From a virus: a stretch of DNA of 35,049 nt. Location of the stretch: positions 4,779 to 39,827 of IMG/VR virus record IMGVR_UViG_3300030118_004387; one strand, given 5' to 3'. Numbering within the stretch: position 1 is the first letter of the stretch; each line of letters starts with the position of its first letter. Shown here in pieces: positions 4,699 to 16,719 of this stretch. The position numbers were made by a program, and so were the translations under genes. The notes below the pieces were generated by a model. It saw only the letters and a list, made by a program, of their open reading frames with translations, had not been told where the DNA came from and searched no databases.

Positions 4699-5315
4699 GC
4701 ATTGAACACTTAAACAAGGCTTTGAAGGTTGAAGGCTTGAAGCCTACTGCAAAATTTATACTTATTGTCTTAGCTAATTATGCCGATGAAAAAGGAACTT
4801 GTTATCCATCGTATCGTCACATTGCCAATATCGTTGGCTTAAAAGATACAAAAGGAGTGCAGCGTACTATTAAATCTTTAGCTGATATGGGCTTACTTAA
4901 GATCAATAACAGAAAAAATGATAGTGGTGGAAACACAAGTAATCTTTATGAACTTACTATGGGTTCAGAAACCCCCACCCCCTTGTCAGCCCCTCCCCTC
5001 AGGGTTACAGAACCCTCCAATACTAAAGAAGATACAAAAGAATATATATCATCATTCCAAGAGTTTTGGAAAATATATCCAAGAAAGATTGGAAAGAAAC
5101 AAGCTAGTAAGATATTTGGAAAATATGACGAAAAACATTATGCGAAGATCATTCATGGAGTTAGACTTTTTGCACAAGAAAATAAAACCACAGAAGAAAG
5201 ATTCATACCACACCCTTCAACATGGTTGAACCAAGAGCGTTGGATGGATTGGTTTGAAGAAACTGATGGTCAATATGTTTTAAAAATAAATAAATTGAAT
5301 AACCTCGCAGGTTAG
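4695..5315 (+). CDS. Helix-turn-helix replication protein (initiator or helicase loader)
   Basis: Residues 1-95 form a winged helix of the HTH_36 type, with the pattern LKPTAKFILIVLANYAD and CYPSYRHIANIVG that is common to phage replication O-like proteins. A Pro-rich linker follows, then a C-terminal domain opening with FWKIYPRKIGKKQA, a motif shared with phage DnaC- or DnaD-like loaders. At 206 residues it is of usual size. The start has GGAG eight bases upstream. Directly next is the primase-helicase, so it probably recognises the origin and recruits that enzyme. Whether it binds origin DNA or only the helicase is not settled by sequence. Confidence 0.75.
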   Translation: MSIEHLNKALKVEGLKPTAKFILIVLANYADEKGTCYPSYRHIANIVGLKDTKGVQRTIKSLADMGLLKINNRKNDSGGNTSNLYELTMGSETPTPLSAPPLRVTEPSNTKEDTKEYISSFQEFWKIYPRKIGKKQASKIFGKYDEKHYAKIIHGVRLFAQENKTTEERFIPHPSTWLNQERWMDWFEETDGQYVLKINKLNNLAG

Positions 5316-5324
5316 GAGTGGAAA

Positions 5325-7019
5325 ATGAATGAAAGACCAGAAGATCATGGAATCAAGCTGAGAAAGTTTGATCATGGAACCCAAAAAGTAAAATGTCCCA
5401 AATGTCAGCCACCGCATAAGATGTCTGACAACCCATTGAGCGTAACAATTAATGAGGAAGGCACAGTATGGTTTTGTCACCATTGTGACTGGAAAGGTAG
5501 TTATTTTACTAACAGTAACAAGATGTATATTCCAAAAGAAAAGGTATATCAAAAACCAGAAGTCCCTAACAGCAATGCCAAAAATACAACCTATCAATAT
5601 TTTAAAAATCGTGGCATTGGGGCTACTGTTGTAGATGAATTCAAAATATTTGAGGACAAAGGTTGGTTTGGGTTCCAGTACTTTGATGAGCATGAGCAAG
5701 TTTTAAATATCAAATATAGAAACAATGGAAAAAACTTTAGGCAAACACAGGGAGCAAAACCTTTTCTGTTTAACTACAACAAAGTAAAAGAAGCTGATGA
5801 AATAGTATTTGTGGAAGGAGAAATGGATGTCTTGAGTTGTGCAGAAATCGGTATGTTAGCTACTACCTTGCCCAATGGTGCACCAAAAGAAGCAAAGTTT
5901 AATGACAAAGATGCTAGATTCAATGCTTTGGAAAACTGTCCCCTTAGTGCAAAAAAAGTTATCCTCTTTACTGATACAGATACCGCAGGTAAAGCCTTAC
6001 ATAAAGAATTGCTACATCGTTTCGGCAAAGATGTTTGTTGGTATGTCAATGTGCCTGATGACTGTAAAGATGCAAACGATGTTTTGGTAAAACATGGAGC
6101 AGCGAAATTAAAGAAAGTCATAGATGAGGCAATACCTTATCCAATTGATGGTCTTTACTCTGCTAACGATTACTATTCACAGATTCAAGATTTGTACGAT
6201 GGGAACTATGAAAAGCCAATTGAAATAGGCATGAAAGGTTTAGATGAAATTTACAAAATAATGACTGGTACTTTTCATTGTATTACTGGCATACCAAATC
6301 ATGGTAAATCTATTTTTTTAGATCAAATACTACTGAACCTAGCTTTAAATCATGATTGGAAGTTTGCAATCTTTTCTCCTGAACACTCAACTTCAATGCA
6401 TATAAGACGATTGATTCAGATGTATTGTCGGAAGCCATTTGATGAAGGCTTTGAAGAAAGACTAGATAAAAAAGAATTAAATCAGGCTCTTGAGTTTATT
6501 CAGAGTCACTTCTACTTCATAGAAACAAGGGACAGTACCCCAACTGTAAACAACATATTAGATATCACAAAATCGTCAATATTTAAGCATGGGATAAATG
6601 GTTTGGTGATTGACCCTTACAACGAAGTTGATGCAAAAAGAGAGGGAAATGCAAGAGAAGATGAGCATATTAGAGATTTCATATCTTTATGTAAAAGGTT
6701 CTCAAGGATTTACGAGATCGTAACATGGGTTGTAGCACATCCTACTAAATTGCCTAAAGGTACTGATGGTGGTTATACCCCACCAACCGCATACGACATA
6801 AGTGGGGCAGCACATTGGCACAATCAGGCTGATGCAGTCCTTACTATTCACAGAGATTTTGATGAAAACACCACAAGTGTAATAACTAGGAAAATCAGAG
6901 AACAAGACCTATATGGCAAGATTGGAGAAGCTAAATTTATGTATAACTTCAAAACAAGGAGCTTTGACCCTTACACAAAAATGGTTGTTGGTGATTGGGA
7001 AGAAAATGTCACTTGGTAA
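5325..7019 (+). CDS. DNA primase-helicase (T7 gp4/Twinkle type)
   Basis: A 564-residue fusion enzyme that primes lagging-strand synthesis and unwinds DNA at the phage fork. The zinc-binding domain has CPKC (24-27) and CHHC (51-54). The TOPRIM primase core shows VEGEMD (163-168) and the acidic TDTDTAG (216-222). The RecA-fold helicase has Walker A GIPNHGKS (322-329), Walker B GLVIDPYNE, and a sensor-like VVAHPTKLPKG. The AGGAG site overlaps the end of the initiator gene. Its last 11 bases overlap the convergent kinase gene. No DNA polymerase is visible in the window, so the phage may rely on the host polymerase or carry one in the missing part. Confidence 0.92.
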   Translation: MNERPEDHGIKLRKFDHGTQKVKCPKCQPPHKMSDNPLSVTINEEGTVWFCHHCDWKGSYFTNSNKMYIPKEKVYQKPEVPNSNAKNTTYQYFKNRGIGATVVDEFKIFEDKGWFGFQYFDEHEQVLNIKYRNNGKNFRQTQGAKPFLFNYNKVKEADEIVFVEGEMDVLSCAEIGMLATTLPNGAPKEAKFNDKDARFNALENCPLSAKKVILFTDTDTAGKALHKELLHRFGKDVCWYVNVPDDCKDANDVLVKHGAAKLKKVIDEAIPYPIDGLYSANDYYSQIQDLYDGNYEKPIEIGMKGLDEIYKIMTGTFHCITGIPNHGKSIFLDQILLNLALNHDWKFAIFSPEHSTSMHIRRLIQMYCRKPFDEGFEERLDKKELNQALEFIQSHFYFIETRDSTPTVNNILDITKSSIFKHGINGLVIDPYNEVDAKREGNAREDEHIRDFISLCKRFSRIYEIVTWVVAHPTKLPKGTDGGYTPPTAYDISGAAHWHNQADAVLTIHRDFDENTTSVITRKIREQDLYGKIGEAKFMYNFKTRSFDPYTKMVVGDWEENVTW

Positions 7020-7539
7020 ATTCAAATAAGTCTTTTGCAAGGCTTTTTGATTCTTCTAAGTCTCTTAAAGAAACCAACTCAATTATATTAGAAAGTTCTT
7101 TATCCTTTTTTATGTTTTGTATTTTCGTGAGTCTGCCTTTCTTGAATTTTTCAGTTTGTTTGTCACCTCTTTGTTCGTGTCTTTTTTCTAATGTTGCAGC
7201 ATCTCCTTCTAAAATTATTATGCGGATATCGTAATCCTGATTTAGAAGTTTTAAGTTATTAGCAGTAAAAAGACGATCACCTTCAAAAACAATGTTCTTA
7301 TCACTCATAGCTACATAAGATTCAAAGTCCTTTTGAACTGCCATAGACAACTTATCTGTGCCTGCAAAGACCTCTCCTAAATCGTATATACCAAGTACGC
7401 TAGTTTCGCTTTTTGTGTCGTGATAACCCCTCAACAAACCCTTTTGAAATTTTTTGTTTGGCTTTAATAAGGACAAATAATTTCGCATAAGAGTAGTTTT
7501 GCCAGAAGCAGGTACACCACCGATTGCCACACATTTCAT
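7009..7539 (-). CDS. 5-hydroxymethyl-dU DNA kinase (P-loop)
   Basis: A 176-residue P-loop kinase predicted to phosphorylate the hydroxymethyl group of 5-hydroxymethyluracil in DNA, activating it for displacement. Walker A is GGVPASGKTT (7-16); the motif VFAGTDKLSMAVQ (57-69) is the one I associate with the phage 5-hmdU DNA kinase family, and a lid-like ATLEKRHEQRGDK follows. It is the last gene of the modification operon and overlaps the transferase upstream by ATGA, so the two are made together, as expected for successive steps. The motif match is from memory; a nucleotide kinase of other specificity is the alternative. Confidence 0.78.
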   Translation of the reverse strand: MKCVAIGGVPASGKTTLMRNYLSLLKPNKKFQKGLLRGYHDTKSETSVLGIYDLGEVFAGTDKLSMAVQKDFESYVAMSDKNIVFEGDRLFTANNLKLLNQDYDIRIIILEGDAATLEKRHEQRGDKQTEKFKKGRLTKIQNIKKDKELSNIIELVSLRDLEESKSLAKDLFEFTK

Positions 7540-8498
7540 AATGTTTTGTAGTTTAAAGTGCCAGTATCTAAAAATACAGAAAATAAATCTTTTCTTATTT
7601 GTTTGCTTGCAGCTAACTTTGGGTGCAGAGTTTCTTCTCTACCATCCCAAAAAACTTGCCAATCAATACCATTCCATTCATCTTGCTCTACTTTCTTTAT
7701 CTCCTCTGCCTGTCTATCTAAATAATATCCCAAATATCTACCATCTCTGTTGCGGAAGATTTTTTTAAAACTACAGAGCAAAGTTTCCATTTGATAAAAA
7801 TTCATATCTATGTTGCTTTCATCTTTTAGCTCTTTTTTTAACCTAGCTGCTTGATGCTCTAAATAAAATATGGTGTTTGAATCAAGTTTCTGGTTGATCA
7901 AGTCTTCATGGCTAAGGGCATACAAAAGACCATTTCTATGTGATTTACTACCACTGTGGTCATTTAATTTAAGATTGTTCGGATAAATAGGCACTCCGAC
8001 ACATTCTTCTAAAGTTTGCAAATAGTACCAAGTAGAATACCTACCAAACTTATGCATATTATTGACTATACTCAGCCAAATATACTCAAAAGGCTTATTC
8101 ATTAGTTTTTTAAATCTTGCTCTTTGTGTACCTTCAGGATTGTCATGCAAAACCCACCTTTTGTAACTAGCATATTGTTGAGGCAAATGCCCCTTATTCC
8201 ATTTTGTGTCAGTTTGATATCTTAGCCTTTTGAAATTTTCATCATTCCACTTCTGCAACCTTGATTGATTGACTAACTCAAAATCAGGAAACTCATTCCA
8301 AATAATCCATGCAGTCGGTAAATGATAAGTTGTCCCATAAATCCAAGCGATCCAATATTTTTGCTCTAAATTATGTTCAAACCTTTTGAATAAGTAATTC
8401 AAAAGCCAAAGCGCAGGATCACAGTCGTGATTTTTTAAAGACCAACCACACCAATCTTTAAAGATTTGCTCACGACTTTGTTTTGTTTTTCCTAACAT
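7536..8498 (-). CDS. Amino acid:DNA transferase (AGPT-pyrophosphorylase family)
   Basis: A 320-residue, all-helical protein of the family called alpha-glutamyl/putrescinyl thymine pyrophosphorylase or amino acid:DNA transferase. Enzymes of this type displace the (pyro)phosphate of activated 5-hydroxymethyluracil in DNA with an amine or amino acid. Family-like motifs are GTTYHLPTAW and WNEFPDF (55-73), YQTDTKWNKGHLP, KFGRYSTWYYLQTL and a C-terminal RNRDGRYLGYYLDRQ. I start it at the ATG at 8498, one base after the acetyltransferase stop; an in-frame ATG at 8555 would overlap that gene and neither has a clear ribosome site. It ends coupled to the kinase. Substrate amino acid cannot be read from sequence. 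Confidence 0.75.
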   Translation of the reverse strand: MLGKTKQSREQIFKDWCGWSLKNHDCDPALWLLNYLFKRFEHNLEQKYWIAWIYGTTYHLPTAWIIWNEFPDFELVNQSRLQKWNDENFKRLRYQTDTKWNKGHLPQQYASYKRWVLHDNPEGTQRARFKKLMNKPFEYIWLSIVNNMHKFGRYSTWYYLQTLEECVGVPIYPNNLKLNDHSGSKSHRNGLLYALSHEDLINQKLDSNTIFYLEHQAARLKKELKDESNIDMNFYQMETLLCSFKKIFRNRDGRYLGYYLDRQAEEIKKVEQDEWNGIDWQVFWDGREETLHPKLAASKQIRKDLFSVFLDTGTLNYKTL

Positions 8499-8499
8499 T

Positions 8500-9012
8500 T
8501 TAGTTATCAAAAACTTTGATGCACCCTCCTCTACCTTTTTTGAAAACTGCTGCATTTATTACAGGGTCTTTTAAATCATATATTCCGTCATGGAACGACT
8601 TGCCACCTATTAAAAACATGGATAACTGACTTTTAGACTTTTGTTCTCCAAGCATTTGAAAGCCAATACTTTCATAAAAAATAACTGCATCAGGTTCAGC
8701 AGAAACTCTAAAATATTTTGCTTTTTGGCTTATAGCGTATAACAAACTATATTCACAGAGTTTTTTGGCTATACCTTGCCTACGATATTTAGCAAAAGTA
8801 TGAAGTAGTTGTAAATTAGCTACTAAAGGTTCTTTTTTTGAGATAGTCGTAATTATTGCTCCGCATAAATTTTTTTTGTGATAAAAACCTACGCAACTAT
8901 TCCAGTATCTACCAAGATTAGCTTTTGAAACAAAAGTATGAGCAAACTTATCTCTTTCATCATCAGTGATTGCTTTTAAAAAATCGCTTTTTTTACACCT
9001 TGATAAACTCAC
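8500..9012 (-). CDS. GNAT-family acetyltransferase
   Basis: A 170-residue N-acyltransferase. The acetyl-CoA loop is RRQGIAKKL, preceded by the strand LQLLHTFAKY, and the C-terminal half has FYESIGFQMLG, the usual GNAT motif B. It appears to begin at GTG 9012, preceded by AAAGG, overlapping the amidoligase by 20 bases; there is no good ATG. Inside an operon for base hypermodification it could acylate a free amine on the thymine side chain, as acyltransferases do in some described thymidine pathways. A small-molecule or protein substrate remains possible. Confidence 0.8.
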   Translation of the reverse strand: MSLSRCKKSDFLKAITDDERDKFAHTFVSKANLGRYWNSCVGFYHKKNLCGAIITTISKKEPLVANLQLLHTFAKYRRQGIAKKLCEYSLLYAISQKAKYFRVSAEPDAVIFYESIGFQMLGEQKSKSQLSMFLIGGKSFHDGIYDLKDPVINAAVFKKGRGGCIKVFDN

Positions 9013-9868
9013 GAGCCTTTTTACCTCTGCTTTTATCGTATTTACTATTTATCCATCCATTATACTCAGCGTAATTCCAGACAAAAGGTGGGAAACTAAA
9101 ATCATAGGATTGAAGTATCTCAAAAACATTTGGACCATCGTTCAAAGCAGCTTCAATAAAAAGCTCAACAAATTTGAATTGATCAGCTATCTCCTTCTCT
9201 TTGACGCTAGATCTAAAACATCTGAATTCAATAGTTTTTGTGTGTTTCAAACAGTAAGTATTAATAGCGTAGCGGAATGGTCTGCCGATTGATACTCCAT
9301 CTTTACCTGCAGCATGCAGTTTTATAAAATCTTCAAAAGAATGAGCCCTAGTCAGTATGTTTTTTATCATATAAGGTGGCATAGGACGACCACCATCATA
9401 TTTCAGATACATTTTAGCTCCTTTAGATTTTTTCATTGGTAAGCCAGCATCATAAAAATTATAAAGGGCATTAATAGTTAGTTCTTGATTGATTCCGATG
9501 TATTTAATTAGCTTTTTCAATCCTTCAATATCTTCAATTAAATTTGGTATATGCACATGGAGATGACCATGATTGACACAAGAGGCACTAGGTGTATTAC
9601 CTGATTGCACAAAAAGTTCATGCAATTCCATAATATTATTTACTTGCTCAGCCCATGTTAAAGTAGGCTTTGTATTTATCTCGCCCCCCATGCAAGGATC
9701 CAAACCAAGAGGATCACAGGCTTTATATTTGTGTGGCTCTTGAATATTCACAATATCTGTTTCAGCGTATTCCCATTTACCCAAGGATTCAGGTATTGAG
9801 ATTCGCCTATCTATATCACCCCATTCAATTTCATAGCCCCAAGTGAAATCTTTTTTATCGTATTTCAT
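8993..9868 (-). CDS. Glutamine-synthetase-like amidoligase
   Basis: A 291-residue member of the amidoligase_2 group, which has the glutamine synthetase fold and joins an amine to a carboxylate at the cost of ATP. The expected metal and nucleotide residues are in place: GYEIEW (11-16), EINTKP (63-68), HGHLHVHIP (100-108) and TIEFRCFR near residue 213. These enzymes typically pair with a class II amidotransferase, and here that partner is the next gene upstream with a four-base overlap. The inferred job is to amidate or extend an amino-acid side chain on a modified base; peptide or cell-wall substrates, proposed for relatives, are the alternative. Confidence 0.83.
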   Translation of the reverse strand: MKYDKKDFTWGYEIEWGDIDRRISIPESLGKWEYAETDIVNIQEPHKYKACDPLGLDPCMGGEINTKPTLTWAEQVNNIMELHELFVQSGNTPSASCVNHGHLHVHIPNLIEDIEGLKKLIKYIGINQELTINALYNFYDAGLPMKKSKGAKMYLKYDGGRPMPPYMIKNILTRAHSFEDFIKLHAAGKDGVSIGRPFRYAINTYCLKHTKTIEFRCFRSSVKEKEIADQFKFVELFIEAALNDGPNVFEILQSYDFSFPPFVWNYAEYNGWINSKYDKSRGKKAREFIKV

Positions 9869-10512
9869 TGTAAGTCCTCGTAAGATTCTCTAATCTTTAC
9901 CACTTCTAAAATATTATTGATTGAACAATAATCATAGCAAGGTTCAGTTTTTGATATATTTTTCAAACTGAGCTTTTTAAGGATGTCTAAGGTAGAACCT
10001 ACTAAAAGTGTATTTTCAGTTTGCGAAAAATACAAAGGTCTCTGCTCGTTTCTGAAAAAGTTTAATGCAGGTTCCTTTTTGTTTGTTAATACTACACAAC
10101 TCATAGAGCCTTCTATCTTCAATGGGTGTATGCCTTTCAGCCAATGTAAAAGAAGAATTTCGCTGTCGCACTTAGAACTAAACTTCATGTTGTACTTAGC
10201 TTCCCACTTGCTCGGATCGCTTTGATCCACAACTCCATTATGTGCTAATGAAGTAGTCCCTTTGTAAACAGGCTGATTGTAAAGTAAGTCTGATGTGCTG
10301 TACCTACAATGAGCTATCAAGTTTTTGGTTTTAAAATCAGGTAAATCAAAAAGGTCAGCAGAATAAGGCACGATTTCATGTTTCAGTTTTCCGTCCTCAA
10401 TCCAACTTAGACCAGTAGCATGTTTGCCCCTTATCATTGATTCAAGGAGTATTTCTTTAACTAAAGATTTATCAATAAAATTTTTAGATTGTAAGCCAAC
10501 AACAGCACACAT
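9865..10512 (-). CDS. Class II glutamine amidotransferase
   Basis: A 215-residue Ntn-fold glutaminase that would release ammonia from glutamine for the amidoligase. The start at ATG 10512 leaves Cys2 as the N-terminal nucleophile once Met is removed (MCAVVG), which decides the start over the preceding in-frame GTG. RGKHATG (28-34), AHCRYST (67-73) and AHNGVV (90-95) match the glutamine-binding and oxyanion-hole motifs of the purF/glmS class. There is no synthase domain attached, so the acceptor must be a separate protein, most simply the adjacent amidoligase. The start overlaps the dioxygenase stop by one base. Confidence 0.88.
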   Translation of the reverse strand: MCAVVGLQSKNFIDKSLVKEILLESMIRGKHATGLSWIEDGKLKHEIVPYSADLFDLPDFKTKNLIAHCRYSTSDLLYNQPVYKGTTSLAHNGVVDQSDPSKWEAKYNMKFSSKCDSEILLLHWLKGIHPLKIEGSMSCVVLTNKKEPALNFFRNEQRPLYFSQTENTLLVGSTLDILKKLSLKNISKTEPCYDYCSINNILEVVKIRESYEDLQ

Positions 10513-11429
10513 CACAGACTCAAACTGTCGCCTCTGTTTCTGGTTTGTGCTTTGAACAATTCTTCTTCAGCAGACTGACAATGATGCATTTTTTCTCTGT
10601 AATAACAGACAATTGACACTCTTTCATATGCTAGTTTGGCTTTTATTTCTGTATTAGCGTGATATTCATGCACATTGAAAAAACAGACATCTCCGCTTCT
10701 CACATCAAAAGCGACTCGGTATCTAGGTATAACAGTATATCCACCTTCGTATTTCCCTGCCTCTAATACAGCTAAGTTACCTAAACCCTCTTTGTAATCT
10801 CCTGCGTCCACATGCAAGGCAGTTCTAAAGTTTTTGTTCACTGTGATGGTCGTAAACACAGTATCTTTAATCAAGAAGTCTGAATTTGTCTGATCTGCCA
10901 TGATTTTTTGAGCTTCATATCTTTCAGGGCATGATTCTTTAAAAAGCTCGTTTATTTTATGTATGTAAGGGTAGGCTTTTTTGAACTTATTAAAGTTTTT
11001 TTCATACCATGCAGTCTGTCTGCAAAAGGGAAATCTAGCATTTCTATCAAAAAAACCAACAATGCCTGAGTTTACTGTATTAGCTCTTGAAGTATTACTG
11101 AGTGTTCCGTCCTTTTTAATGCCTCTAAATCTTATTTTACTTAAATCGCCAATTTCCCAATCGTTTTGAGTTTCATTACTGATTATACCGCCTGCACTAC
11201 CACGATTGTTTGTGGGAGCTGCTGCATCTCTCAAAGCTACATAAGCATCTTTACAAAGGTTTGTAGGTATTTTGTTTTTCCTAAAGAAGAATAAAGGCTC
11301 TCCATTTTCACCATATGCATCACAATCATCTCTGATTACAACATCATAATCAGATTCATCAATCCATTCTCCTTTCCTTTTGGCTACTTCTTCTTTTGTA
11401 TAATGTGGTTCTAAATTAAAAACCTTCAT
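10512..11429 (-). CDS. TET/JBP-type 2-oxoglutarate/Fe(II) dioxygenase
   Basis: A 305-residue enzyme of the TET/JBP family, which hydroxylates the methyl group of thymine or 5-methylcytosine in DNA. The iron ligands read as H206-x-D208 in RTALHVDAGD and H257 in NVHEYHANT; R270 in YERVSIV would bind 2-oxoglutarate. The phrase FTTITVNKN just ahead of the HxD, and the GGYTVIP strand, are characteristic of phage members. I use ATG 11429 rather than an upstream TTG. No cytosine methyltransferase lies nearby, while a 5-hmdU kinase and its transferase do, so thymine to 5-hydroxymethyluracil is the favoured reaction. It is coupled to the ParB-like gene by a 14-base overlap. Confidence 0.82.
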   Translation of the reverse strand: MKVFNLEPHYTKEEVAKRKGEWIDESDYDVVIRDDCDAYGENGEPLFFFRKNKIPTNLCKDAYVALRDAAAPTNNRGSAGGIISNETQNDWEIGDLSKIRFRGIKKDGTLSNTSRANTVNSGIVGFFDRNARFPFCRQTAWYEKNFNKFKKAYPYIHKINELFKESCPERYEAQKIMADQTNSDFLIKDTVFTTITVNKNFRTALHVDAGDYKEGLGNLAVLEAGKYEGGYTVIPRYRVAFDVRSGDVCFFNVHEYHANTEIKAKLAYERVSIVCYYREKMHHCQSAEEELFKAQTRNRGDSLSL

Positions 11430-12042
11430 TTTTCGCTGTCTTTTCAACTGCTTCGTAAACAGTCTCAGTTAAATTTTCTTTTGACCATTTTTCTCTAAGG
11501 AAAGCTACCATGTCTTGAAACTTTGGCTCAGTTTCTTGATTCAAAAATATATTGACCATTCTCACATTACTGGTCTGTAAGTCATCAAATTGTGAGGTGT
11601 CTATATCTGTTACAATCTCTTCTGGCTCTGTGAACTCAATCATATCAGAGGTCATTTTCTCAATTTCTTCAAACGAAAACCCTGTTTGATCTAGGTCATA
11701 ATTTTGATCAGCAAGTTTGCCAAACTCCTCGGCAAGAAGTTCATTATCCCACTCTGAGAAATCTTGGCTTTTGTTATCCATAATCCTGAAAGCAGTTTTT
11801 TGAGCCTCACTAAGTCCTTCTGCTTTGTGCACAGGTACTTGTTCAAACCCTAACAACTTAGCAGCCTTGAGTCTCGTATGTCCTGCTAGGATTACCATAT
11901 CTTCATCAACGATTATAGGAACTCGCCAACCAACCTCTTTTATACTCATAGCTACTTTTTCAATAGATTCTTTATTGTTTCTTGGATTGTTGGGGTATTC
12001 TTGCAAATCCTCAACCTTCATCATTTTTGTGTTGTATGCCAT
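11416..12042 (-). CDS. ParB-like nuclease-domain protein
   Basis: A 208-residue protein with an N-terminal ParB/Srx fold: LQEYPNNPRNN (13-23), IIVDEDMVILAGHTRLKAA (about 43-61, with GHTR at 54-57) and a helical segment with MDNKSQD. The ParB fold can bind CTP or act as an ATP-dependent kinase or nuclease. It lacks the DNA-binding second domain of partition proteins and there is no ParA, so plasmid-style partition is unlikely. ParB-like proteins recur beside base-modification genes in phages, and here it is directly upstream of and coupled to the dioxygenase. Its exact step (targeting, phosphorylation or nicking) is open. Confidence 0.85.
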   Translation of the reverse strand: MAYNTKMMKVEDLQEYPNNPRNNKESIEKVAMSIKEVGWRVPIIVDEDMVILAGHTRLKAAKLLGFEQVPVHKAEGLSEAQKTAFRIMDNKSQDFSEWDNELLAEEFGKLADQNYDLDQTGFSFEEIEKMTSDMIEFTEPEEIVTDIDTSQFDDLQTSNVRMVNIFLNQETEPKFQDMVAFLREKWSKENLTETVYEAVEKTAKNEGF

Positions 12043-12043
12043 A

Positions 12044-12250
12044 TTAATCTAAATAAAAATCGTTAGGTGTTACTAAGCCATCAGTGGCTTGGTATATTAT
12101 ATTTAATTCCTTTTTTCTTGGATATCTCTGTTCTAAAAGATATTTTGCTAAAGTTCCTTGCGGGAACTTGTGACCAGTTTTTAACTCAGCACTTCTGATA
12201 AACAGTTTTTGTGTAAGTTTATTTGCTCTCAAATATTCTTTTAATTTCAT
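12044..12250 (-). CDS. Cro-like helix-turn-helix regulator
   Basis: A 68-residue Cro-like protein with a basic N-terminal helix-turn-helix and the C-terminal phrase ATDGLVTPNDFY that is typical of Cro/YdaS-type repressors. It is the first gene of the leftward modification operon, transcribed from a perfect-consensus promoter whose spacer contains a dyad. It very probably represses its own operon and perhaps the divergent recombination genes. No obvious Shine-Dalgarno precedes it. There is no CI-like partner or integrase in the window, so this looks like a single-regulator switch, not a lysogeny circuit. Confidence 0.75.
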   Translation of the reverse strand: MKLKEYLRANKLTQKLFIRSAELKTGHKFPQGTLAKYLLEQRYPRKKELNIIYQATDGLVTPNDFYLD

Positions 12251-15590: not shown

Positions 15591-15833
15591 ATGAAAAATC
15601 TAAAACTAATACTAGAAAACCCTAATACCCAAACTGAGATAGTTCTTGGTTTCGTTGCTGATGAGGACGAAGCTAACGAAGTTGTTGATGCCATTGAGGA
15701 AAAGTGGTTTTCAGTAATTGATTCTAACCTTGATAAGCCAGTTGACATGCTAACTGATGACCCTGTTTTACTTAACTGGGAAGGTAGCGACATCTACTAT
15801 ATCAATTCTTATAACGAACACTTTTACCTTTAA
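15591..15833 (+). CDS. Hypothetical acidic protein, 80 residues
   Basis: The start follows AAGGAG. The protein is strongly acidic (ADEDEANEVVDAIEEK and several Asp pairs) and ends in aromatic residues. Acidic small proteins next to antirestriction genes are sometimes DNA mimics, but no specific family is recognised and this is speculation. It is the first gene after the third promoter copy. Confidence 0.6.
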   Translation: MKNLKLILENPNTQTEIVLGFVADEDEANEVVDAIEEKWFSVIDSNLDKPVDMLTDDPVLLNWEGSDIYYINSYNEHFYL

Positions 15834-15843
15834 GGAGCATAAA

Positions 15844-16719
15844 ATGAAGAAAGACGAAGTATTCAAAAGGATAAGAGAAAAAATCTTAGAGCTAATGAAG
15901 AAAGAGGGTACAGACTGGACTAAGTCTTGGATTGCTACTGCAACTCCTCTTAACTTCTTAAGCAAAAAAGAGTACAGAGGCATCAATAATTTTTGGCTCT
16001 CTGTACAGGGCTTTGACTCAAATGAGTGGGGTACTTTCAAACAATGGCAGTCTAAAGGCTACCGCATCAAGAAAGGTTCTTCCGCTACTCCGATAATCTT
16101 TTCTGAGATGAGAGAAAAAACTTTAGACAGATTATCCGATGACGAAAAAGCTAGATACGAAGAAACAGGTGTAATGCCTAAGTTTTGGTTACTAAGAAGC
16201 TACAATGTTTTTAACGCTGACCAGATAGAGGCTTATGTAAGTGAAAATACTAAGGTTGATCATAAAGAAACTATCAGTTCTAAAGACTTAGAGGCAGTAA
16301 TAAGGTTTATTGCTGCCACTAAAGCAGAGATCAAACACGAAGGCGATAGAGCTTACTATCATCAAATATTTGATGAAATAACTATGCCTGCTAAAGATAA
16401 ATTCTTTTCTGATGAAGATTACTACTCTGTCTTATTGCATGAGCTAACTCACTGGACTATGCACGAAGATAGAACCAACAGACAAGATAAAGACCTAAGT
16501 TATGCACAAGAAGAATTAGTAGCAGAGCTTGGTTCGGCTTTTCTTTGCAGATTGTTGAATGTTTCAAAAACAGTTAGACCAGATCACGCTAAGTATCTCA
16601 ATAACTGGATTGAAGCGATTGAGGATAGCGAGAAAGCAATGGTTCAAGCGTTTTCGGATGCACAAAAGGCGGTTGATTACTTAACCAAACTACAAACTAA
16701 AATGGAGAAGGCTGCATAA
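15844..16719 (+). CDS. ArdC-like antirestriction protein
   Basis: A 291-residue protein with the two-domain ArdC layout: an N-terminal ssDNA-binding domain (WLSVQGFDSNEWGTFKQW, KGSSATPIIF) and a C-terminal zincin-like metallopeptidase with LHELTHW, the HExxH-type zinc site, and the downstream AQEELVAELGSAFLC supplying the third ligand. ArdC proteins of plasmids protect incoming DNA from restriction. The ATG at 15844 after AAGGAGC is chosen. Its TAA stop lies in the loop of a terminator-like hairpin. Confidence 0.85.
   Translation: MKKDEVFKRIREKILELMKKEGTDWTKSWIATATPLNFLSKKEYRGINNFWLSVQGFDSNEWGTFKQWQSKGYRIKKGSSATPIIFSEMREKTLDRLSDDEKARYEETGVMPKFWLLRSYNVFNADQIEAYVSENTKVDHKETISSKDLEAVIRFIAATKAEIKHEGDRAYYHQIFDEITMPAKDKFFSDEDYYSVLLHELTHWTMHEDRTNRQDKDLSYAQEELVAELGSAFLCRLLNVSKTVRPDHAKYLNNWIEAIEDSEKAMVQAFSDAQKAVDYLTKLQTKMEKAA

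Follow-up and report, generated by a model that had tools for sequence, protein, structure and literature searches.

A phage operon predicted to place glutamine-derived nitrogen on thymine in DNA

Genes of the operon

The window is a 35,049-nucleotide stretch of viral DNA (IMG/VR record IMGVR_UViG_3300030118_004387, positions 4,779 to 39,827). It contains an operon at 7009–12250 that an earlier note, made from the sequence alone, described as a leftward run of eight genes, nearly all overlapping. Each of the eight ORFs is confirmed on the minus strand; neighbouring genes overlap by 4, 4, 4, and 20 bases, and two further overlaps vary with the choice of start codon. The genes are as follows.

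12044–12250, minus strand: operon gene 1, small putative Cro/XRE-like regulator (ORF, 68 aa)
11416–12042, minus strand: ParB-like protein (PF02195, 1.9e-8)
10512–11429, minus strand: TET/JBP 2OG-Fe(II) dioxygenase (PF12851, 7.2e-25; longest ORF to 11447)
9865–10512, minus strand: stand-alone class II (Ntn) glutamine amidotransferase, GATII (PF13522, GATase_6, 5.9e-10)
8993–9868, minus strand: GS-like COOH-NH2 amidoligase, GSL, module gene (fold and invariant residues)
8500–9012, minus strand: GNAT acyltransferase type 1, GNAT1, module gene (PF13673, 3.7e-14)
7536–8555, minus strand: ADDT, amino acid:DNA transferase family (PF18724, 1.4e-21; fold match)
7009–7539, minus strand: P-loop kinase, predicted 5-hmU DNA kinase (clade profile matches; PF18751 weak)

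Six of the eight genes (TET/JBP, GATII, GSL, GNAT, ADDT, and the P-loop kinase) encode hypermodification enzymes. The earlier note had named the same six families, and the set holds, five members by Pfam, profile, or fold identity and the kinase, as a probable member, by its clade profile. In Pfam profile searches of each protein, Tet_JBP (87.6 bits versus a cut-off of 34.9), ADDT, GNAT, GATase_6, and ParB_N score above the curated cut-offs, whereas the kinase and GSL fall below theirs. Three start codons deserve comment. For TET, ATG 11429 is preferred over the longest ORF because relatives start there. GATII likely starts at ATG 10512, making the Cys residue 2 (MC...). ADDT perhaps starts at ATG 8498 rather than further upstream, since the longer reading is modelled with low confidence over its initial ~25 residues.

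The cassette is found in about 166 distinct phage contigs in the fixed order TET-GATII-[module]-ADDT-KIN; these contigs are possibly incomplete, so gene absences in them are soft. The recurrence of six genes in the same order, the invariance of the catalytic residues, and the low dN/dS (~0.02–0.05 for TET, ParB, and the kinase, versus one sibling phage) argue that the operon is not a chance assembly.

The HxD...H...R motif of TET is intact, with H212, D214, H263, and R276 invariant in 135 unique loci. The kinase matches PF18751 weakly (1.3e-3); its clade profile matches Cr30 gp114 (1.6e-53), the phage Simon kinase (1e-6), and PaMx11 gp49 (9e-6), and its Walker A Lys, EGDR, and Arg motifs are invariant in 130 loci. 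On this sequence evidence it is predicted to be a 5-hmU DNA kinase. GSL reaches only 0.036 against PF12224. The best PDB folds for its AlphaFold2 model (pLDDT 95) are glutathione/gamma-glutamylcysteine/glutamine synthetases and YbdK, and E13, E15, E63, H102, E214, and R216 are invariant in 95 loci. Judged by the modelled fold and the presence of the catalytic Glu/His/Arg set, GSL is a GS-like COOH-NH2 amidoligase.

The ADDT model (pLDDT 91) has a sole meaningful PDB match, the PaMx11 5-PmdU glycinyltransferase gp46 (8z2n/8z2m, probability 1.00). The resemblance to gp46 is weak by direct profile comparison and clear by fold comparison, and PDB sequence searches with the kinase, ADDT, or GATII alone return nothing useful. 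By homology, ADDT is predicted to act on phosphorylated 5-hmU in DNA.

GATII and its tie to ADDT

GATII has a complete active-site set, comprising the N-terminal Cys nucleophile, Arg, the Asn-Gly oxyanion hole, and Asp; the Cys, Arg71, Asn93, Gly94, and Asp117 are essentially invariant in 149 loci. Its best NCBIfam relative is purF (3.5e-9). GATII is present in 70/70 loci of the cassette ADDT clade, including 24/24 without the amidoligase. In the ADDT-ascertained subset it is present in 23/23 loci, and in 15/15 of those without GSL; conversely, ADDT is present in all 36 GATII-ascertained loci. In four loci (L105, L108, L140, and L219) the operon is minimal: it consists of the four genes TET-GATII-ADDT-KIN and lacks any ligase or GNAT. 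The sister ADDT clade has GATII in 0 of 26 loci and instead has a PLP-dependent ACC deaminase-related gene or an uncharacterised methyltransferase-like gene, never both.

Although the neighbour gene of GATII is TET, GATII co-evolves with ADDT. Among the gene pairs, GATII-ADDT has the highest partial mirror-tree correlation (0.55; 0.71 within GSL-free GNAT2 loci), with GATII-TET not far under it at 0.45; that of the neighbours ADDT-KIN is 0.16. Since GATII is kept without the amidoligase, tracks ADDT, and is absent from the sister clade, it appears to supply nitrogen to the ADDT step itself. We predict that GATII is the ammonia donor to ADDT, its glutaminase activity being channelled to this presumed partner. 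The FAD oxidoreductase of the PaMx11/Simon family is found in 0/25 cassette contigs.

The earlier note had proposed that an amino acid is attached and then amidated via the amidotransferase. In the fullest form of that scheme, ADDT would attach a whole amino acid to phosphorylated 5-hmU, GATII and GSL would jointly act as a glutamine-dependent enzyme that amidates or extends its carboxylate, and GNAT would acetylate the amine. Glycine transfer is an established activity of the ADDT family (8z2n), the cassette ADDT clade profile matches the Ackermannviridae ADDT (2e-39), and GATII–amidoligase pairs occur in LUZ24-like phages. To our knowledge amino acids are the substrates of every characterised ADDT, and one could serve as the ADDT nucleophile in this cassette too. 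However, GATII is retained in every cassette without GSL, the minimal ones without any ligase included, and is missing from the sister clade; phage Simon has GSL with no GATII found nearby; and the GSL profile fails to match the LUZ24 amidoligase (E 1.7). We consider the scheme unlikely. Substitution at 5-hmU by ADDT, which it shares with our reading, is well supported; the identity of the attached group as an amino acid is not.

GATII could also work through a gamma-glutamyl thioester, either transferring gamma-glutamyl to the base amine or cleaving it off an ADDT-attached glutamine. EgtC and Dug3 are stand-alone hydrolases of the class II GATase fold, and the stand-alone nature of GATII, its complete active site, and its tie to ADDT would all suit such a role. 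However, among curated families GATII lies closest to PurF and asparagine synthetase, in which the amidotransferase domain passes ammonia on to a partner, and gamma-glutamyl chemistry seems to us more doubtful still.

Thymine as the target base

Amidoligases and GNATs frequently work in metabolite or peptide systems, as in the LUZ24 cluster, and the cassette might by that token make a small molecule or modify protein or tRNA. We regard this as very improbable, given that TET, ADDT, and the kinase are all linked with families acting on DNA bases and that the fold match of ADDT is a 5-phosphomethyl-dU transferase.

TET/JBP is predicted from its sequence to turn thymine in DNA into 5-hydroxymethyluracil. 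In profile searches, a C5-methyltransferase is found in 0/24 cassette contigs and a thymidylate-synthase family member above cut-off in 0/24; no thymidylate synthase homologue is found in this phage record either. Because neither type of gene was found in the 24 contigs, TET probably acts on thymine rather than on 5-methylcytosine. One locus, L189, carries a thymidylate synthase homologue, HMUD2, HMUDK_hel, GATII, and an ADDT-GNAT fusion, and TET is not found in a search confined to its 8.2-kb contig. This exchange of TET for a thymidylate synthase route further supports thymine as the target. A second candidate for such an exchange, the L194-group, was dropped, as 3/4 contigs tested carry TET further off.

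Family membership, gene order, the lack of a C5-methyltransferase, and the exchange in L189 together uphold the hydroxylation of thymine by TET put forward in the earlier note; phosphorylation by the predicted kinase is likewise well supported, by family membership, gene order, and the thymine-target evidence. Other phage TETs are said to act on methylated cytosine, but it is scarcely credible that TET here works on 5-methylcytosine, with cytosine as the base that is decorated, since C5-methyltransferases were found in none of the 24 contigs and L189 has a thymidylate-synthase and 5-hmdU kinase route.

Proposed pathway and related systems

Most likely, the operon converts thymine in phage DNA stepwise into a bulky nitrogen-bearing base. 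TET/JBP would hydroxylate thymine in DNA to 5-hmU, and the kinase would phosphorylate the hydroxymethyl group. ADDT and the stand-alone glutaminase GATII would then replace the phosphate with glutamine-derived ammonia, yielding 5-aminomethyl-dU, a step that would require a channelling contact between the lone GATII and ADDT. In this phage, GSL would join a carboxylate, probably an amino acid, to the amine of 5-aminomethyl-dU, and GNAT1 would acylate a remaining amine. The bulky base would shield phage DNA from host nucleases. Computation shows the families, gene order, active sites, and GATII-ADDT partnership; we infer the reactions, the sequence of steps that follows the amine, and the protection of the DNA.

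Taken as a whole, post-replicative thymidine hypermodification with glutamine-derived amination, then GSL/GNAT1 decoration and nuclease protection, has in our judgement somewhat better than an even chance of being correct. That TET-GATII-ADDT-kinase forms a four-gene glutamine-dependent DNA aminase with a PurF-like reaction, its amine serving as a handle for interchangeable modules, we hold to be evenly balanced. 5-NmdU is named in the title of a structural paper cited in PMC11946847. In the literature we found no report of glutamine-derived nitrogen on thymine; an earlier mention of a TET-GATII-amidoligase cassette is possible.

Between GATII and ADDT lies GSL with GNAT1, which belongs to the GSL module, or GNAT2, or a glycosyltransferase with GSL and an LMW phosphatase. 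The earlier note had called the product not predictable. This was too pessimistic, as it is possible to propose both a core product and a set of three decoration modules. ADDT switching with the module, expected if ADDT chose different amino acids, was also considered, and no special coupling emerged: module changes number 16 on the ADDT tree and 17, 17, and 18 on those of GATII, TET, and the kinase, versus about 36 when shuffled.

If true, the pathway would be a further phage route for nitrogen onto the thymine methyl carbon, in addition to amino-acid transfer with trimming by FAD or PLP enzymes, and the amine on thymine would be a common handle for variable decoration. Its enzymes would install a glutamine-derived amine on thymine in finished DNA, which would be of use in labelling and in sequencing, and nuclease resistance could be tested in a large set of environmental phages. 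Genes that currently carry the labels terminase small subunit, SNF2, or hypothetical would also gain a function.

The Pseudomonas phage PaMx11 cluster (gp46–gp52) resembles the operon in ADDT fold (8z2n/8z2m), 5-hmU kinase family, GNAT, and compactness. In PaMx11 a thymidylate synthase homologue and an FAD enzyme accompany ADDT and the kinase, whereas here TET replaces the former, GATII stands where the latter is, and GSL is added. The phage Simon cluster (PQ683277) shares GSL (4e-46 to the cassette GSL clade profile), the ADDT family, and the kinase, but has a thymidylate-synthase route, an FAD enzyme, and an LMW phosphatase, and neither TET nor GATII was found close by. Ackermannviridae (ViI/Ag3) share the ADDT family, and Ag3 has the 5-hmdU DNA kinase HMUD2 near ADDT; unlike in this operon, no GATII is annotated beside the Ag3 ADDT. 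In Ackermannviridae, 5hmdU is believed to enter the DNA during replication and not to be made by TET (PMC6449724).

The LUZ24-like amidoligase/GATII/RimK/GGCT cluster has a homologous class II GATase (5e-24), but within a longer protein and without an annotated ADDT, kinase, or TET next to it. Its amidoligase, LUZ24 gp18, is the one unrelated to the cassette GSL at the sequence level. RimK and GGCT have no match among the eight operon proteins in Pfam searches, and the operon is not of the LUZ24 type.

Rhodococcus phage Tonitrus and Caulobacter phage Cr30 share the core of TET, ADDT, and kinase. The sister ADDT clade, which was retrieved with Cr30-like and actinobacterial queries, yielded neither GATII nor GSL nor GNAT, and a PLP-family-like or methyltransferase-like gene is present instead. 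Tonitrus also has ParB, the Tonitrus-type set being ParB-TET-aGPT-Pplase2-5hmU kinase (PMC11955845). The 68-aa Cro-like ORF has no family match in family profile searches; its homologues comprise 31 ORFs in 237 fetched loci, adjoining ParB. ParB itself is present in 19/23 ADDT-ascertained loci and is possibly a DNA-binding or targeting factor; ParB domains adjoining phage DNA-modifying enzymes have been reported (PMC12783734).

The operon and its enzymes

The window (positions 4779–39827 of the 39,827-base virus record G000) covers most of that record and contains the following features.

7009–12250 (−), operon of eight ORFs
15757–16719 (+), ArdC-type antirestriction protein (ArdcN, 1.2e-22; polyvalent metallopeptidase, 1.3e-38)

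The eight ORFs match the description in the earlier note. The TET/JBP dioxygenase (TET), the amino acid:DNA transferase family protein (ADDT), GNAT, the class II glutamine amidotransferase (GATII), and the ParB-like protein score above curated Pfam cut-offs; the predicted 5-hmU DNA kinase (KIN) and the glutamine-synthetase-like amidoligase (GSL) give mere hints in the Pfam search. ATG 10512 is the predicted start of GATII, since it places Cys at residue 2, the N-terminal position required of an Ntn glutaminase. TET probably starts at 11429, and ADDT perhaps at 8498. The ArdC-type protein is consistent with a phage investing in restriction evasion. In the phage's own record, four codons of the terminase large subunit frame (L016, 4575–5886) read X, marking a few undetermined bases.

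Residues H212, D214, H263, and R276 of TET (135 loci), E13, E15, E63, H102, E214, and R216 of GSL (95 loci), and the Walker Lys, EGDR, and two Arg of the kinase (130 loci) are invariant, and Cys, Arg71, Asn93, Gly94, and Asp117 of GATII are essentially so (149 loci). Of 350,542 PDB chains compared with the predicted ADDT model (pLDDT 91), the only meaningful match is PaMx11 gp46 (8z2n/8z2m; probability 1.00), a 5-phosphomethyl-2'-deoxyuridine glycinyltransferase. For the GSL model (pLDDT 95), the individual matches, to glutathione, gamma-glutamylcysteine, and glutamine synthetases and to YbdK, are weak, but the 50 best PDB matches all belong to that superfamily. The kinase profile of the cassette clade matches the Cr30, Simon, and PaMx11 kinases. 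Several public annotations (L004, L246, L243, and L002) are likely wrong: the Cr30 gp114 and PaMx11 gp49 kinases as 'terminase small subunit', the Ag3 gp200 5-hmdU kinase as 'guanylate kinase', and TET as 'SNF2' or 'DnaJ'.

Spread of the cassette and its modules

Alignment-based scans of IMG/VR yielded 309 encoding stretches for GSL, 437 for ADDT, and at least 585 for GATII; cellular genomes gave only three contigs, all from metagenome-assembled genomes. After duplicate removal, 166 distinct loci were compared, including fragments and a few distant named phages, on contigs of ~4 kb to 168 kb. The order TET-GATII-[module]-ADDT-KIN holds almost throughout, with four states of the module.

Module states between GATII and ADDT
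GSL and GNAT1, often then a further gene: 71 loci
GNAT2 alone: 52 loci
Glycosyltransferase (TAGT, PF20691, in some loci; an unassigned protein in others), GSL, and LMW phosphatase: 8 loci, one without the glycosyltransferase
Nothing: 5 loci, one of them (L189) with GNAT fused to ADDT

L010, a near-sibling of the window phage with the same flanks, carries GNAT2 in place of GSL and GNAT1. Label changes on the trees number 17 for TET, 17 for GATII, 16 for ADDT, and 18 for the kinase. This indicates frequent module exchange without particular coupling to any core gene, the pattern that would follow from a core producing a constant intermediate. ORFs c7 and c63, between GNAT1 and ADDT (L086, 11479–12786; L216, 10184–11689), have no Pfam match; visual inspection suggests a GIY-YIG or HNH nuclease fused to ParB-like segments. 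They may be homing elements or targeting factors.

GATII and ADDT

In the earlier note, an amino acid is attached and then amidated or extended. A role of the amidotransferase at that later stage is not supported: where the flanks are long enough (70 loci), every locus has GATII and 46 have GSL. In the subset found through ADDT, GATII occurs in 23/23 loci and GSL in 8/23, four minimal operons read TET-GATII-ADDT-KIN, and ADDT is present in all 36 GATII-ascertained loci. The sister ADDT clade has TET (22/26) and kinase (23/26), and GATII, GSL, and GNAT in 0/26 each (for GATII, 0/26 versus 70/70, Fisher p ~5e-24, the loci not being independent). The partial correlation of pairwise distances is 0.55 for GATII-ADDT (2.5–97.5% range over subsamples, 0.49–0.63), 0.46 for TET-KIN, 0.45 for TET-GATII, and 0.16 for ADDT-KIN, and for GATII-ADDT reaches 0.71 in GSL-free GNAT2 loci. 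When ranks replace distances in the thinned set, the lead of GATII-ADDT (0.44) over TET-GATII (0.46) disappears, so the correlations are only moderate evidence. Together, the locus counts, the sister-clade absence, and the correlations argue for GATII behaving as the partner of ADDT.

Substrate, proposed chemistry, and related systems

The gene content points to thymine as the likely substrate. Profile searches of 24 cassette records found no C5-cytosine methyltransferase and no thymidylate-synthase-family protein over cut-off; cassette contigs may be incomplete, so gene absences hold for the available sequence. L189 (2051–8151), on a contig of only 8.2 kb in which TET was not found, compactly encodes HMUD2 (5-hmdU kinase), GATII, the ADDT-GNAT fusion, HMUDK_hel, a thymidylate synthase homologue, and a YfbR-like nucleotidase. 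Since the thymidylate synthase route occurs there, TET and a nucleotide-level hydroxymethylase seem able to substitute for each other, which fits a supply of 5-hmU in DNA by either one.

In the simplest chemistry predicted for the pathway, GATII would feed ammonia to ADDT and the product would be 5-aminomethyl-dU (5-NmdU). The closest NCBIfam relative of GATII is purF, and this role is likened to that of PurF, whose glutaminase domain supplies its transferase with ammonia. 5-NmdU is named in the title of a structural paper cited in PMC11946847. In PaMx11 a FAD enzyme adjoins ADDT. No enzyme of this kind was found in 25 cassette records. In phage Simon, ADDT and a FAD enzyme occur together with GSL and LMW phosphatase, and the neighbourhood showed no GATII; this puts GSL at a step after the amine, not in a pair with GATII. 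The GNAT-ADDT fusion in L189 makes acylation of the ADDT product likely. In the window phage, the expected steps, in either order, are ligation of a carboxylate onto the amine by GSL and acylation by GNAT1.

TET-based thymine hypermodification is not new as a core idea, since Tonitrus carries a ParB-TET-ADDT-kinase set (PMC11955845). We found no description of the GATII-ADDT partnership or of module swapping in the literature covered, which does not include Iyer 2013, Lee 2018, 2022, and the 5-NmdU structure paper; an earlier mention of the cassette is possible. The sister clade (L250–L329) shares TET and kinase with the cassette but adds a different gene, either a relative of the PLP-dependent ACC deaminase (best E 4e-4) or one that is methyltransferase-like by eye, never both, which suggests two further thymine modifications. 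In Vibrio phage 2.275.O (L006, 9890–14150), a GSL homologue and a GATII lie close to genes for 7-deazaguanine, a hint that deazaguanine may undergo comparable amide chemistry.
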